From Methanothrix sp. (GTDB lineage Archaea > Halobacteriota > Methanosarcinia > Methanotrichales > Methanotrichaceae), in contig JANYKI010000027.1 in assembly GCA_025361645.1 (NCBI GenBank), positions 1 to 63,658 on the forward strand: a stretch of DNA of 63,658 nucleotides, written 5' to 3'. The translations under genes were made by a program, and so were the position numbers. A model generated the notes under the pieces. That model saw only the letters and a program-made list of their open reading frames with translations, was not told where the DNA came from and made no database searches. Shown here one piece after another: positions 2,246-43,860 of this stretch (positions are counted from its first letter, which is position 1; each line of letters opens with the position of its first letter).

Positions 2246-2617
2246 CTACTCCACCTCCCCCTCTTCCACCGCCTCGCGCGGCGCGAGCAAGAGCTCATTG
2301 AAGAGCAGGATCTCGATCACCTGGGCCACATAGCGCCTCTGCTGATACCTCTGGATATCCTGGGTCATCATCAACTCCGCCTCCACCTGTACCCGGATCA
2401 GGCAGAGCCTCATGTCCCTCTGGTCCTCCTCCTGGATGCAGAGGTTGAAGATGTCCTTGAGCAGCCAGGGCAGCCTCATGGGATTTCTTAGAGCCCTGGC
2501 CACGAGCAGGATGTAGCTCTTGATCAGATTGGGCTCTTTGATCTCATCCACTCCGGAAAGCAGCAGCAGATCTTGGGCGGAGAAATTCTCGCCATTTACA
2601 GTTATGGTGTTATTCAA
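2246..2617 (-). CDS. Conserved-looking unknown protein at the end of the cob operon
   Basis: 123 residues from a TTG start that overlaps the cobY stop; a GGTGAT ribosome-binding sequence precedes it. I do not recognise a domain. The sequence is helical, rich in Leu, Gln and Arg, with an acidic C-terminus (EAVEEGEVE) and no cysteines that would suggest a metal site beyond C60 and C77. The overlap with cobY places it in the cobZ-cobS-cobY transcription unit, so a role linked to cobamide assembly or salvage is possible, but this is only context. Confidence 0.6.
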   Translation of the reverse strand: MNNTITVNGENFSAQDLLLLSGVDEIKEPNLIKSYILLVARALRNPMRLPWLLKDIFNLCIQEEDQRDMRLCLIRVQVEAELMMTQDIQRYQQRRYVAQVIEILLFNELLLAPREAVEEGEVE

Positions 2618-3204
2618 AGGAAATCACCTTGCATTATCTTCTCACAGAGCATGAGGTCTCCGACCACATTTACATTCACCGCCAGCTCAATTCTCTCCAA
2701 TATCAGGTGAAAGTCCTCCTGCTCCTTTTCTATATCGACTCCATCCAGCACATTTATGCCTGCCGGAACGATGAGACGGCCCTGGTAGTTGAAGAGGGAA
2801 TCGGGCCTTCGACCCAGACGACTGTGCAGATCGAGGGGAGTATGCGTGGAGAGCGCCGGCTCAGGCCGCCCCTCATAAACCTCGATGATCTCATCGATCA
2901 GATCCGAAGTGACCAGGGGCAGGTCGGCCATGATGATCATAATTGGGTCTGTAACCTCTGCTTTCTTTACGGCCTCAATCATGTCCGCCACATAGCCATA
3001 GCCACCCGTCTCCATCACACAAAGCCCCCTCTCTGTAGCCCATTTTTGGGTGCGGGGCACATTGTCCGTGGTGGCCACAAAGATCCTATCCACACCGCTG
3101 TCCTCCAAAGCCAGAGCCACATAGTCGATGAGCGGCCGGCCAAAGAGGGTCACCAGCGGCTTTTCCCCCATATTCAGCCGAGAGCCCCGGCCCCCCGCCA
3201 TCAC
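2614..3204 (-). CDS. cobY: GTP:adenosylcobinamide-phosphate guanylyltransferase CobY
   Basis: Archaeal enzyme that transfers GMP from GTP to adenosylcobinamide phosphate, giving AdoCbi-GDP for the nucleotide loop of cobamides; it replaces bacterial CobU. At 196 residues it matches the usual archaeal length. The N-terminus has the nucleotidyltransferase signature AGGRGSRL with a downstream EKPL, and MIIMADLPLV carries the metal-binding Asp. Start is GTG 3204 or the adjacent ATG 3201; the latter gives a TGATG overlap with cobS. Co-transcribed with cobZ and cobS, the order known from Methanosarcina. Confidence 0.93.
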   Translation of the reverse strand: MMAGGRGSRLNMGEKPLVTLFGRPLIDYVALALEDSGVDRIFVATTDNVPRTQKWATERGLCVMETGGYGYVADMIEAVKKAEVTDPIMIIMADLPLVTSDLIDEIIEVYEGRPEPALSTHTPLDLHSRLGRRPDSLFNYQGRLIVPAGINVLDGVDIEKEQEDFHLILERIELAVNVNVVGDLMLCEKIMQGDFL

Positions 3205-38541: not shown

Positions 38542-39846
38542 TTACACCAAGTTCCAAAATCGTATATACCAGTTGCTTCCTGCTTTTCCACGAATTTCTG
38601 ATCCACCTTCTAGATTTCTGTTATTCATAATAAATTGAACTGACTTATCCACTCTTGCATCATATTCATCATAAACAAGCATCGCTTGTATTATGGTTGT
38701 TGCAGACGCTGTGTCGCTTATATCTGTAAATTCAAAGTGCATCAAATGCTTTGAATTGTAAATTTCCCGAATGCGCCTTGGCATCTCCTTTGCGTTATCA
38801 TTCGAATCCAGGACAATGCAATCAGCCATGGCACGAAAATTTGGCTTGGGATTTTTCCAGATCGAAAGAAATTCTGCTAGCCGTTGCTCGGGTGTTCCTG
38901 CATCATACATTTCTGGACCACCGGTTGCTGGAATATCCTGGCCGATCTTACTGGCTCTTGGTTTCCATCTCGACAGCTCTAGATTTTCGGCTCCATTATC
39001 GCTGATCTGCTTGATCACTTGACTCCACGTTATCGGCTTTTCCGGAGGTTGTGGGTCCAATAATCCGTGTTCCGCTTTCATAGCCCAATCGCGTATAGAA
39101 AACAGCGCTGCCCAAGCTTTTGCTGCAACCATTTTATTATCGTAGCCAAGATCCATGCCATGCAAAATGCCGTTTCGATACGGGATGGTTATCTGATCGG
39201 ATGTTGTTTTATAGCGACCTTTATTGAAAACACCGGCCAGTGCCTTCAAGCCTTTGCTGTGGCCAGAGATAGAATTCCATGCTTCCAGATTAGCATTTTC
39301 TGCAAAAAAGCCGAGTTTTGATCCTCTTCCTCTCTCGTGCGCGTCATTGACTATTCCATCAAGCAGAGCAAGAACAACAGGGACACAAGCATGATAACGC
39401 GCCTCACGATAATCAATTCGCGCCTTTTGTGCCAGATGCCACCTTGCGCTGAATGCATCCACACGTTTCATATTCTTTATGTTCCACCCAACTTTCTCGT
39501 CATTATAGTAATTTACAAGGTCAGTTTCGGCACCATCAATATCTCCTGACTCTGCCTTCTTTATCGCAGCCTTAGCAACTTCAGGATTCATAAGTTCATA
39601 GATGATCCAGCCGCGCTCAGCGAATAGATCATTGAATCGATCTGGGATAGATGCCAGCTCTTCAGCCGAGCGACTTAGCGCCTCTACCTTTGCCAGCTCT
39701 AAATCGATATTATCTCCCTCAATTCCAAATTGCTTTAAGAATGGTTTTAAAAGCGGCAAAGCATCTTTCGCATTTTTGAGATTTTGAATGTCTTGAATTG
39801 GCTTATTAATTGTTGGTATATCCCGAATGCTTGGCTCTTTTTCCAT
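38542..39846 (-). CDS. Large HEPN-motif protein, function unknown
   Basis: 434 residues. The N-terminal 170 residues are helical. Residues 224-229 (RNGILH, followed by GMDLGY) match the HEPN RX4H signature, inside a region (ACVPVVLALLDGIVNDA ... YRNGILHGMDLGYDNKMVAAKAWAALFSIRDW) typical of large HEPN-fold proteins. The C-terminal 150 residues form a separate alpha/beta part. Codon use is clearly AT-richer than that of the flanking ureohydrolase and channel genes, which suggests an acquired gene. An RNase or abortive-infection role is possible but not shown. Confidence 0.65.
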   Translation of the reverse strand: MEKEPSIRDIPTINKPIQDIQNLKNAKDALPLLKPFLKQFGIEGDNIDLELAKVEALSRSAEELASIPDRFNDLFAERGWIIYELMNPEVAKAAIKKAESGDIDGAETDLVNYYNDEKVGWNIKNMKRVDAFSARWHLAQKARIDYREARYHACVPVVLALLDGIVNDAHERGRGSKLGFFAENANLEAWNSISGHSKGLKALAGVFNKGRYKTTSDQITIPYRNGILHGMDLGYDNKMVAAKAWAALFSIRDWAMKAEHGLLDPQPPEKPITWSQVIKQISDNGAENLELSRWKPRASKIGQDIPATGGPEMYDAGTPEQRLAEFLSIWKNPKPNFRAMADCIVLDSNDNAKEMPRRIREIYNSKHLMHFEFTDISDTASATTIIQAMLVYDEYDARVDKSVQFIMNNRNLEGGSEIRGKAGSNWYIRFWNLV

Positions 39847-40134: not shown

Positions 40135-40983
40135 CTATTTTTCCTCTGGATCCTCATCACATGGCCCGGCTGAGCCTGCCAGGTCACCGATATACCGCCC
40201 ACAATGCGGGCATCTAAATTTTTGCATCTTCCGATCCTCCTTTCTCTTAGCCAGCACCTCGGCAAAACCGGAGGCCAGAACCCCGGTGGGCAGGGCGAAG
40301 AGTCCTATGCCTAATATTACTACGATCGAGCCGATCAACTTGCCCCAGAGTGTCACGGGATATACATCTCCGTAGCCCACCGTGGCCAGGGTCACAATGC
40401 CCCACCACATGGCCACCGGAATGCTGGAGAAGGCCTCGGGCTGAGCAGCGTTCTCCGCCTCGTACATGAGGCTGGAGGAGACGACGAGTAGTATCATGAT
40501 GGCAAAGAACATGAGCAAAATCTCTTCCTTCTTCAGCCGCAGCACATCCACGAAGGTCTGCAGCGCCTCGGAGTAGCGGGCCAGCTTCAGCACCCGGAAG
40601 AGCCGGAAGAGGCGCATGGCTCGCATGAACCTCAAATCCAGGAAGAAGATGGGCAGATAGAAAGGCAACACTGCTATGATATCGACTAAGGCCAGGGGCG
40701 TCACCAGGAATTGCAGCCTGCCCCGCACCGGATCTTTGAATCTGGGATTTACGGTGCAGCTCCAAACGCGAAGGATGTATTCAACGGTGAAGACGGCCAC
40801 GGAAAAAACATCGAAAGCACGAAAGAGGGGGGCGTAGGCAGAGTAGATCGACTGCACCGTCTCCAGGACCACAGCGGCTACGTTTAATACAATCAGACCC
40901 ATGATGAAGGGGTCGAAGTACTTGCTGTCTTCATCCCCCGGCTCCAGTATGCCGTAGATGCGTGTCTTGAGGTCCTGCTTCAT
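40135..40983 (-). CDS. Voltage-gated potassium channel with C-terminal zinc finger
   Basis: 282 residues. Six membrane segments are visible. S4 is arginine-rich (RFMRAMRLFRLFRVLKLARY), and the pore carries the canonical K+ selectivity filter TVGYGD (in TLATVGYGDVYP). S6 follows (IGSIVVILGIGLFALPTGVLASGF). The cytoplasmic tail has CPHCGRYIG, a half zinc ribbon, and an acidic end. It is the second of two tandem channel paralogues, 53 bases after the other. Confidence 0.9.
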   Translation of the reverse strand: MKQDLKTRIYGILEPGDEDSKYFDPFIMGLIVLNVAAVVLETVQSIYSAYAPLFRAFDVFSVAVFTVEYILRVWSCTVNPRFKDPVRGRLQFLVTPLALVDIIAVLPFYLPIFFLDLRFMRAMRLFRLFRVLKLARYSEALQTFVDVLRLKKEEILLMFFAIMILLVVSSSLMYEAENAAQPEAFSSIPVAMWWGIVTLATVGYGDVYPVTLWGKLIGSIVVILGIGLFALPTGVLASGFAEVLAKRKEDRKMQKFRCPHCGRYIGDLAGSAGPCDEDPEEK

Positions 40984-41036: not shown

Positions 41037-41837
41037 TTAAGGGCCCTTTTCAAGGCTTTCTTTCGCTGCGGCTTCCTTCTCCCCCCGACGTCTTTCCAGC
41101 TCGTCCACAAAGCCTGAGGTGAGAATCGACGTAGGCAGGGCGAAGGTGGCCACGCCCAAAATTATGATCAGCCCGCCTGCTAATTTTCCCAGTGGGGTTA
41201 TGGGATAAAAATTGTCTCCAACGGTGGTCATGGTCAGCACCGCCCACCACATGGTAGCGGGTATGTCCGGAAAACGCTGGGGTTGAGCCTCATGCTCCAG
41301 GAAATAAATCACCGTCGAGGATAACACCATGAAGAAAATGATGGCCGAGAAACTCATGACCAGCTCGCGCTGTTGGGCGCGTACCACATCCATTATGGTC
41401 TGCAGGGACTCGGAGTAGCGGCTCATCTTGAGCAGCCGGAAGGTCCAAAGCACGCGAAGGCTTCGCAGTAGCTTATGATCTGTGGGAAAGGCAAGGGCGG
41501 CATAGGTCGGCAATATCACCAGAAGATCGATCAGCGCCAAAGGAGTCAGGGCGAAGCGCAATCTTCCCTGGAAGGGATGTCTGTATTTCGGATCCACATC
41601 GCATGACCACAGGCGCAAAATGTATTCGATGGTGAATACTACTACGGATATGTCCGATAAGTAATGGAACAGATCCTTGTGGGCCGCATAGATGCTCTCC
41701 ACAGTTTCCAGGACGACCGCAGTGACATTGAGGACCACCAGTACCAGCATAAAGAGATTTACAGCCTCCGCCGTTTTGTCTTCTGCATTGGTCGACTCCA
41801 GGATCTCGTAAATGCGGAGCTTGTAGCTCTTGGCCAT
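41037..41837 (-). CDS. Voltage-gated channel paralogue with altered selectivity filter
   Basis: 266 residues, clearly homologous to the next channel over its whole length (S4: LLRSLRVLWTFRLLKMSRYSE). The filter reads TTVGDNFYPIT instead of TVGYGDVYP: one residue is lost and the GYGD core is replaced by GDN. Potassium selectivity of the usual kind is therefore unlikely. The tail is basic then acidic (LERRRGEKEAAAKES) with no cysteines. It is first in the pair, and its promoter region is shared with the divergent nitrilase gene. Confidence 0.85.
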   Translation of the reverse strand: MAKSYKLRIYEILESTNAEDKTAEAVNLFMLVLVVLNVTAVVLETVESIYAAHKDLFHYLSDISVVVFTIEYILRLWSCDVDPKYRHPFQGRLRFALTPLALIDLLVILPTYAALAFPTDHKLLRSLRVLWTFRLLKMSRYSESLQTIMDVVRAQQRELVMSFSAIIFFMVLSSTVIYFLEHEAQPQRFPDIPATMWWAVLTMTTVGDNFYPITPLGKLAGGLIIILGVATFALPTSILTSGFVDELERRRGEKEAAAKESLEKGP

Positions 41838-41903: not shown

Positions 41904-42674
41904 ATGCGAGCCGCTTGCCTCCAGCTTTCCGTAGAGCCCTGCGCTCCCGATAAAAATCTCTCTCGCGCATTGCAGATGGCAGGCGCGGCTTTAGCCGAAG
42001 GAGTTGAGATCCTGGTATTTCCTGAGCTCTTCCTGACCGGCTTTTGCTACGAGCCTTCTTTGCAGTCCTCCCCCAACGCTTCGGATCATCCGCCCTATCC
42101 CTCACTTGATCCCTTTCGGACGCTGGCTCGCGATCACAATTGCCTTTTCATCGGCTTCATTCGCAGCGGCCGACAGAACCTGGGCTTTTGTCTTGGCGGC
42201 GACGGCCTGCAGCTTCGCCCCAAGATCCACCCCTTCGCGGAGGAGAAGGAGCATTTTGAAGGCGGAGACTCCATCTCGCCCGTAGCCACGAAGTGGGGCC
42301 TGGCGGGGTTAGAGATCTGCTACGACCTGCGCTTTCCTGAAGTGGCGCGCACCCTTGCCCTGCAGGGCGTAGATTTTCTGGTTACCGTGGCCCAGTTTCC
42401 CGCGTCGCGACGCGAGCAGTGGCGCGCGCTGGCCATGGCCCGGGCCGTCGAAAATCAGATGCCTCATCTGGCCTGCAACTGGTCTCGCGGCGGGGGCTCA
42501 TTGATCATTGATGCGCGCGGCCGGGTGTTGGCCGAGGCCGGCTCAGAGCAAGCTCTGCTATGGGCTGATATCGACCTGGCTGATCGGGATGCTTTTCGTC
42601 GCGAGGTTTCCTGTTTTGCTGATCGCCGGCCAGAGATCTATGGAAGGTGGGAGGCTGAACGCTCTAACCCATAA
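41904..42674 (+). CDS. Carbon-nitrogen hydrolase (nitrilase family)
   Basis: 256 residues with the Glu-Lys-Cys triad: FPELFLTGF (Glu), RPKIHPF (Lys) and LEICYDLRFPE (Cys). The family includes omega-amidase, N-carbamoyl hydrolases and amidases; the closest subgroup cannot be read here. A probable leaderless start at ATG 41904. It overlaps priS by about 35 bases. Confidence 0.9.
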   Translation: MRAACLQLSVEPCAPDKNLSRALQMAGAALAEGVEILVFPELFLTGFCYEPSLQSSPNASDHPPYPSLDPFRTLARDHNCLFIGFIRSGRQNLGFCLGGDGLQLRPKIHPFAEEKEHFEGGDSISPVATKWGLAGLEICYDLRFPEVARTLALQGVDFLVTVAQFPASRREQWRALAMARAVENQMPHLACNWSRGGGSLIIDARGRVLAEAGSEQALLWADIDLADRDAFRREVSCFADRRPEIYGRWEAERSNP

Positions 42675-43860
42675 TTTCCTGGTCTCCAAGTTCCGGGGCT
42701 ATTACATTGAATCCTCCCTGGATGCCCCGCCTAGCCTCGCTTCTCGCGAGTGGGGCTTTCTCTTCTTCGACGATTCCGGCATGCGCCGGCACAAGTCATT
42801 CTTCTCGCGAGGGGAACTGGTCGATTATGTGCGTTCCATGGTGCCGCGCCACGTCTATCACTCCGCCGCTTACTACCAGCGGCCCGGCGCGCCCACTATG
42901 AAAGAGAAGCTCTGGCAAGGCGCTGACCTCATCTTCGATCTGGATGCCGATCACCTGAGAAATGCGCCCAAGAGCTATAGCGAGATGCTGGAATTGGTAA
43001 AGAAGGAGACACAAAAGCTCCTGACGTTTCTTTTATCCGACTTCGGCCTTAGCGAGAGCAAAATGAGTGTGGTCTTTTCCGGAGGCAGGGGCTATCACAT
43101 CCACGTTCGAGACCCGCGTGTTTTTAGTTTCGGCAGCGACGAGCGCCGGGAGATCGTGGATTATCTGGCTGGTCGGGGTCTGGCCATGGATCGGTTCATA
43201 CACATGGCACCCATGGAAGGCGATTGGGGAAAAGATAGGGCTTTTCGGCTGCATGCGCCTCCCGCAGGCGCGCCGGGCTGGGGGGGCAGGATCAATCGAT
43301 CCATCATCTCCTTTGTCGAAGATCTGCGCGGCTTGAACGAAGCGGAGGCGATCGTGGTTCTATCGAAACGAAAGGGCATTGGACCCAAAAAAGCCGCCAG
43401 CTTTTACAAAAGCCTGCAAGGGGAAAATGTCTTGGAAGAGATAGGCCGGGGAAATCTGGACCTCTTTCGGGGCAGTGCCGCTATCTGGAAGCTTCTTCTC
43501 GTGGAGTTCTTGGACAGCGAGGGCGTGAAGGTAGGCTTCAATTTAGATGAGGAGCGTGGCGAGACCGATGAGCCGGTGACTGCCGATGTGCGCCGGCTGA
43601 TTCGCTGTCCCGGCAGCCTGCACGGCGGCTCGGGAATGCGCGTGACGTCCCTCACGCTGTGCGACCTCGATGACTTCGATCCTCTGCAAGATGCTGTGGT
43701 CTTCGGAGAGGAGGCCGTGCCTCTGCATATCTTAAAGCCCTTCAAAACACAGATGAGAGGCGTTAGCTATAATCTGGAAGAGGGTCCCACGGAGCTGCCC
43801 GCCTGCGTCGCGGTCTTTCTCATGGCGCGGGGTGTGGCGGAAGCCTGCACAAAGCATTAA
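42640..43860 (+). CDS. priS: DNA primase small (catalytic) subunit PriS
   Basis: About 406 residues from ATG 42640. The catalytic carboxylates are in GADLIFDLDADHLRN (DLD), and the ribose/nucleotide-binding SGGRGYHIHVRD motif follows. IRCPGSLHGGSGMRVT is the conserved C-terminal catalytic segment. It makes primers for replication together with PriL, encoded at 52568-53590. The frame is open to 42508, but homology begins near NALTHNFLVSKFRGYY, so a slightly later start is also possible. It overlaps the nitrilase gene. Confidence 0.94.
   Translation: MEGGRLNALTHNFLVSKFRGYYIESSLDAPPSLASREWGFLFFDDSGMRRHKSFFSRGELVDYVRSMVPRHVYHSAAYYQRPGAPTMKEKLWQGADLIFDLDADHLRNAPKSYSEMLELVKKETQKLLTFLLSDFGLSESKMSVVFSGGRGYHIHVRDPRVFSFGSDERREIVDYLAGRGLAMDRFIHMAPMEGDWGKDRAFRLHAPPAGAPGWGGRINRSIISFVEDLRGLNEAEAIVVLSKRKGIGPKKAASFYKSLQGENVLEEIGRGNLDLFRGSAAIWKLLLVEFLDSEGVKVGFNLDEERGETDEPVTADVRRLIRCPGSLHGGSGMRVTSLTLCDLDDFDPLQDAVVFGEEAVPLHILKPFKTQMRGVSYNLEEGPTELPACVAVFLMARGVAEACTKH

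Follow-up and report, generated by a model that had tools for sequence, protein, structure and literature searches.

A clade-wide short selectivity filter, putatively of the non-selective CNG type, in Kv-like channels of Methanothrix and its relatives

Does a channel gene that has lost the GYGD core of the potassium filter encode a damaged protein, or a channel that conducts in a different way? The question is raised by two adjacent genes in the window, the whole stretch of 63,658 nucleotides of Methanothrix DNA that was analysed, and the channels which they encode are referred to below as A and B (Table 1). The first-pass annotation had described them as tandem duplicates that share a fold, one with TVGDNFYP in place of the TVGYGDVYP of the other, and both open reading frames bear this out. 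A, the minus-strand translation of which contains MWWAVLTMTTVGDNFYPITPLGK, lies upstream of B with 53 bp between its stop codon and the start of B, and the two proteins are 46–47% identical and alignable along their whole length. Each matches the families Ion_trans (PF00520; E 1.9e-27 for A and 1.1e-34 for B) and Ion_trans_2. The Ion_trans match of A covers residues 26–249, spans S1–S6 and scores 96.5 bits against a gathering cut-off of 25; no other domain was found in A at E<=0.001, and the protein ends 17 residues past the match. A and B are the sole matches to A in their own assembly (2.43 Mb, 97% complete), which encodes one further, distant PF00520/PF07885 protein on contig C107.

Table 1. 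Coordinates of the channel pair and its landmarks, counted from the first nucleotide of the window.
Feature	Position	Strand	Basis
Channel A (266 aa, 6TM, Kv-like; short filter TTVGDNFYP)	41037..41837	-	ORF; Ion_trans; AlphaFold2 model
Channel B (282 aa, paralogue of A; canonical K+ filter TVGYGDVYP)	40135..40983	-	ORF; Ion_trans
Channel A filter residues T204-P212 (TTVGDNFYP)	41202..41228	-	Position computed from residue numbers
Channel A S4 segment (R125-R140), in which W131 takes the place of the third arginine	41418..41465	-	Position computed from residue numbers
Carbon-nitrogen hydrolase, divergent neighbour that marks the conserved channel locus	41904..42674	+	Pfam/NCBIfam

The hydrolase gene adjoins the channel in all 15 of the relatives' loci that were compared and also in L034 and L036 (L and G numbers denote loci and genomes, respectively). 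It is followed by genes for PriS, a Sld5/GINS-type protein, an L44e-like ORF and aIF2-alpha, all assigned by Pfam or NCBIfam except the L44e-like ORF, a label that we presume to fit the frame between the Sld5/GINS-type protein and aIF2-alpha. The longest PriS frame (42508–43860, plus strand) shares 167 bases with the hydrolase gene, and the actual start of PriS therefore probably lies further in. At L056 (955–4248) PriS matches two ORFs with another ORF (2430–3074) between them, an arrangement that resembles a rearrangement or an insertion. Between B and an arginase-family gene the window holds a 434-aa ORF (38542–39846, minus strand) that has no Pfam match and no matching ORF in the loci of 15 relatives, five of which span the B–arginase interval (L049, L052, L053, L056 and L058); this ORF is probably an insertion.

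When 60 relatives and 50 family genomes were searched, the compared genomes being mostly metagenome bins, 15 genomes including that of the window yielded a close orthologue of A (66–98% identity), 14 in the genus of the window and one, from G027, in another. A normal filter in such relatives had been named beforehand as the sign of a sequencing error or a recent mutation; instead all 15 orthologues, 14 of which come from other assemblies, carry the short filter T[VI]G[DEMT]N[FVIY]YP, which is one residue shorter than that of B (TVGDNFYP against TVGYGDVYP). TVGDNFYP occurs seven times, TVGENFYP three times, and TVGENYYP, TIGENVYP, TIGENIYP, TIGMNVYP and TIGTNVYP once each. T204, T205, G207, N209, Y211 and P212 are invariant, and residue 208 is Asp or Glu in 13 members and Met or Thr in one each, so that the tetrad reads TVGD, TVGE or TIGE in 13 of the 15 and TIGM or TIGT in the other two. 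Both members that lack an acid at this position (G022 and G027) are from genomes without B, and there are none such among the 11 A proteins that have a B partner, a pattern drawn from genomes too few and too closely related for it to carry weight. GYG is found in none of the 15 orthologues, which likewise fail to match the K+ channel signature TxGYG.

Codons around the filter site of A vary synonymously. Among pairs with dS<1.5, dN/dS has a median of 0.136 in A (73 of 105 pairs) and of 0.172 in B (51 of 55 pairs), and A is under purifying selection. A filter that is shared by the whole clade, with invariant positions and under purifying selection, indicates that A is not broken, as the first-pass annotation had called it, and S4 and S6 have changed as well. 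The further claim of that annotation, that the GYGD core is lost and that selectivity or gating should change, holds for the core in all 15 orthologues, and an altered selectivity would follow naturally from it.

The short filter appears to be rare. An alignment of 215 rows of archaeal and bacterial homologues contains 15 short filters, three of the form GYD[DE], 11 other variants and two pieces of a single stop-interrupted gene; the remainder after these 31 itemised rows is 184 GYGD filters, and no short filter was found among the 215 rows outside the clade of A. The bacterial rows come from among the best 80 of 207 matches, which were retrieved with the patterns IPATMWW and LGVATFALP and not by the filter, and the other archaeal rows derive from 392 genomes of the phylum, as 30 loci plus 80 further listed matches, weaker ones being left out. 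Thirty loci from 60 genomes around G303 comprise 24 with GYGD, two with GSGT, one with GYGA and three without a pattern match, the short filter being absent from the 27 that could be read. Three related channel loci of one archaeal genus (L133, L134 and L142, of G400, G303 and G326) carry, in place of GYGD, the filters TAGSGTMYP or TVGSGEMHP; each of these genomes has a second channel copy elsewhere, and the closest relative of the three loci (L140/L232, G385) has a canonical filter. Two homologues from the phylum survey, L179:226-1146 and L184:244-1119, have the filters GIGYPDVYP and AGFAGLYP. A channel from a deltaproteobacterial bin (L064:4968-5792) reads TNIGSVNFYP, a filter of full length without GYG and with Asn-Phe-Tyr-Pro as in A, which is apparently a change separate from that of A. 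The titles and opening parts of abstracts in the open literature that was searched report no prokaryotic channel with this short filter. No paper pairing Methanothrix with a cation channel was found in that search, and the papers on Methanosaeta and potassium channels are, judging by their titles, not concerned with this channel.

A possible origin of the short filter is suggested by the sister genera. In G034, G061 and G067 the protein nearest to A has the filter TIGYDDIYP or TIGYDEIYP, and its gene occupies the same chromosomal place beside the same divergent hydrolase and PriS genes. In a tree of 79 rows, hand-chosen from the 215 and computed with the filter and W131 columns removed, the 15 short-filter rows form one clade (100/100) and the same 15 with the three GYDD/GYDE rows form another (100/99.8), the bootstrap values being flagged as rough by the program. 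These 18 rows again form a clade (100/100) in a tree that retains all columns and contains 132 of 134 rows. The three GYDD/GYDE rows group together at 92/23 in the 79-row tree and do not form one group in the 132-row tree, and they are living relatives of the short-filter clade, not its ancestors. In a simple reading, the order of which we infer, the filter would have passed from GYGD to GYDD and then, by loss of the Tyr codon and a change of the last Asp to Asn, to the short form; the codons TAC GAT GAT of the GYDD gene at L017 fit this path.

A and B are separated by 18 alignment columns, defined by a differing residue in at least 14 of 15 A rows and at least 24 of 27 B rows; 13 of these are located in S4, the pore helix/filter or S6, the segment limits being the analyst's reading. 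In S4, the position of the third arginine of B is Trp (W131) in all 18 rows of the A clade and Arg in all 27 B rows, and the basic residues R125, R128, R134, K137 and R140 are invariant in the 15 A proteins. KCNQ2 has a Gln aligned with W131, and a neutral residue at this place is therefore compatible with voltage sensing. In S6, a Gly is replaced by Ala in all 15 short-filter proteins. The short-filter rows are marked by A199, M203 and N209 in the pore helix/filter and by A230, T231, S237 and T240 in S6, where the GYDD/GYDE rows mostly have other residues, B-like at several of these positions. That most of the S6 and filter changes are confined to the 15 short-filter rows counts against the explanation preferred below.

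The AlphaFold2 monomer of A (mean pLDDT 83.5) shows a Kv fold, the model containing no tetrameric pore, and it can be superimposed onto Kv4.2 with a Z score of 20.7 over 252 residues (rmsd 2.4). Among solved structures A is nearest in sequence to KCNQ2 and Kv2.1, the 60 of 149 rows listed being Kv and KCNQ channels. Its pore segment matches Kv, KCNQ and KcsA-type channels and mll3241 in the 60 of 173 rows listed, the last, which we take to be MloK1, providing the only CNG-type entries there, and eukaryotic CNG channels are absent from the 50 fold matches listed. The filters of the matched structure chains were read in four KCNQ2 alignments.

How A compares with characterised channels depends on whether the fold or the filter is considered. 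By sequence and fold it is closest to Kv and KCNQ channels, and its neutral third S4 position resembles that of KCNQ2; unlike these channels it has a filter without GYGD, and at 266 aa it presumably also lacks their T1 domain or calmodulin-binding tail. Its likeness to another voltage-gated K+ channel family, the hyperpolarization-activated channels of methanogens (NF040645, which we take to be MVP), amounts to a weak match of 38.2 bits, below the family cut-off of 300.

By its filter, A resembles the metazoan CNG channels, in which TIGE, or TVGD in human CNGA4, is described as replacing TVGYG (PMC10761061). The Glu of this filter stands at the external entrance and its neutralisation lowers the inward current, and the filter of vertebrate CNG channels is reported to be wide and not to discriminate between monovalent cations (PMC10761061). 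Like them, A is a 6TM protein with a TVGD, TVGE or TIGE tetrad and, in 13 of 15 members, an acid at the outer end of the filter. Unlike them, it is a protein of archaeal Kv-like type without a C-linker/nucleotide-binding domain, and residue 208 is followed by N-[FVIY]-Y-P where CNG channels have T-P-P. A CNG tetrad without a nucleotide-binding domain means that A is not a CNG channel. The prokaryotic CNG channel MloK is stated to keep a canonical K+ filter (PMC4607889).

The filter of A also starts with T-V-G-D like those of the engineered NaK2CNG (TVGDTPP, non-selective, with three sites S2–S4; PMC12376597) and of NaK (TVGDGN, with the two sites S3 and S4; PMC9822992), and TVGDNF shares its Asn with NaK. 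NaK is, however, a 2TM channel (PMC4607889), and A differs from it in the absence of the second Gly from all 15 members and in the presence of a voltage-sensor-like S1–S4 domain, so that A is not a NaK channel. Among prokaryotes, the K+ channel superfamily already includes proteins with changed filters that experiments have found to be non-selective, such as NirBac (PMC4607889) and NaKTs, the latter with the filter LPMGNGPLSP (PMC5052707); in contrast to A these are Kir-type or 2TM channels and their filter sequences are unrelated. In the data set of PMC7576140 the metazoan CNG channels are given as the sole clade-wide exception to the canonical filter, the plant CNGC filters, which are also non-canonical, being named there but not analysed, and the same source warns that selectivity is not predictable from primary sequence.

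It is proposed, with a probability of about 0.6, that A is a functional tetrameric cation channel that descended from a K+-selective Kv-like ancestor, and whose filter was rebuilt in a CNG-like, non-selective form. The CNG-type tetrad would then have been reached, apparently, independently of the metazoan CNG channels. Loss of the Tyr and of the second Gly would remove or alter the outer K+ sites and leave the inner T-V-G carbonyl sites, and in most members the outer mouth would be surrounded by an acidic ring of four Asp or Glu side chains, to which partly hydrated cations are drawn. Two members have Met or Thr instead, which shows that such a ring is neither universal in the clade nor essential to it. 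Na+ and K+, and perhaps Ca2+ or NH4+, would pass A with little discrimination, so that its opening would depolarise the cell, an effect opposite to that of the K+-type B. Gating may still proceed via the S1–S4 domain, with a reduced gating charge.

Where A stands beside B, the pair may form heteromers with a changed pore, as the first-pass annotation had suggested. An unlikely extension of this idea would make A a modifier subunit that works solely in A–B heterotetramers, altering the selectivity of B or silencing it. It is consistent with the alignment of the two proteins along their length and with gene order, since in 11 of the 15 genomes A immediately precedes B on one strand (49–139 bp from the A stop to the start of the B profile match), which makes co-expression likely. 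Gene content argues against it. The 50 family genomes comprise 11 with short-filter A and B, one with a GYDE form and B, four with short-filter A alone, two with a GYDD form alone, 17 with B alone and 15 with neither at that match level, several of the last being incomplete. Short-filter A occurs without a B match in G013 (99% complete), G022 (96%), G027 (93%) and G009 (84%), and tblastn detected no remnant of B beside A in the one locus examined from each (L059, L061, L265 and L266); G034, which has the GYDD form and is 99% complete, and G061 likewise lack B. Fifteen of the 17 B-alone genomes are at least 90% complete, and among the 17 there is one case cut by a contig end and one with an internal stop. 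The same hydrolase gene adjoins B in six of 11 B-only loci, the others showing none within short flanks. At L041 (G065) a TGA codon interrupts the B gene. At L264:1333-1545 (G002, contig 131) a C-terminal remnant of A, its last 43 residues, precedes an intact B, a complete A–B pair being present on another contig of G002; this remnant indicates that A can be lost. The locus looks like an old A–B tandem from which either partner has repeatedly been lost, which argues against an obligate A–B channel and leaves room for facultative mixing. Nor is the median dN/dS of A above that of B. Judged by gene content, obligate heteromers are unlikely. Each paralogue is most likely able to form a channel by itself, with mixed tetramers possible in the 11 genomes in which A stands beside B.

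Still less likely is a channel selective for another ion such as Na+ or Ca2+ by means of the acidic ring. Asp or Glu at the filter mouth of 13 members would suit such a channel, and metazoan CNG channels with the same tetrad are described as binding and conducting Ca2+ (PMC10761061), but two members have no acid and the vertebrate CNG channels with this tetrad are, by the same account, non-selective among monovalents. That A remained K+-selective through a different filter geometry, or became a non-conducting voltage sensor, is improbable. K+-selective Kv and KCNQ channels are the nearest solved structures by both sequence and fold, which also weighs against the non-selective reading, the filter has kept its T-V/I-G half and five basic S4 residues are invariant; on the other side, GYG is gone from every member, and a pore under selection is suggested by the invariance of several filter residues and by the changes in S6. 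Scarcely any weight can be given to A being a relic, a sequencing error or a recent mutation. The truncated second copy of A in G002 speaks for a relic in so far as A can be lost, but these explanations are ruled out by 15 open frames with the short filter in separate assemblies and by the median dN/dS of 0.136.

The A proteins are another clade, this one archaeal, in which a TIGE/TVGD-type filter occurs in the absence of a nucleotide-binding domain. Odd filters in non-selective prokaryotic channels are already known, and what is new here is that archaeal Kv-like channels have a filter of the CNG type, apparently by convergence. A more far-reaching possibility, put forward tentatively and at low probability, is that this is a further independent clade-wide CNG-type filter, that A, with an inward and depolarising current, and B, with an outward and repolarising K+ current, may constitute a minimal two-gene unit of electrical signalling, and that the GYGD, GYDD/GYDE and G-D/E-N forms at the same locus in sister genera may be living intermediates. 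Overall, the sister lineages would preserve at one locus what look like stages in the shortening of a K+ filter, and the route from a selective to a non-selective channel would thereby become testable on small natural proteins.
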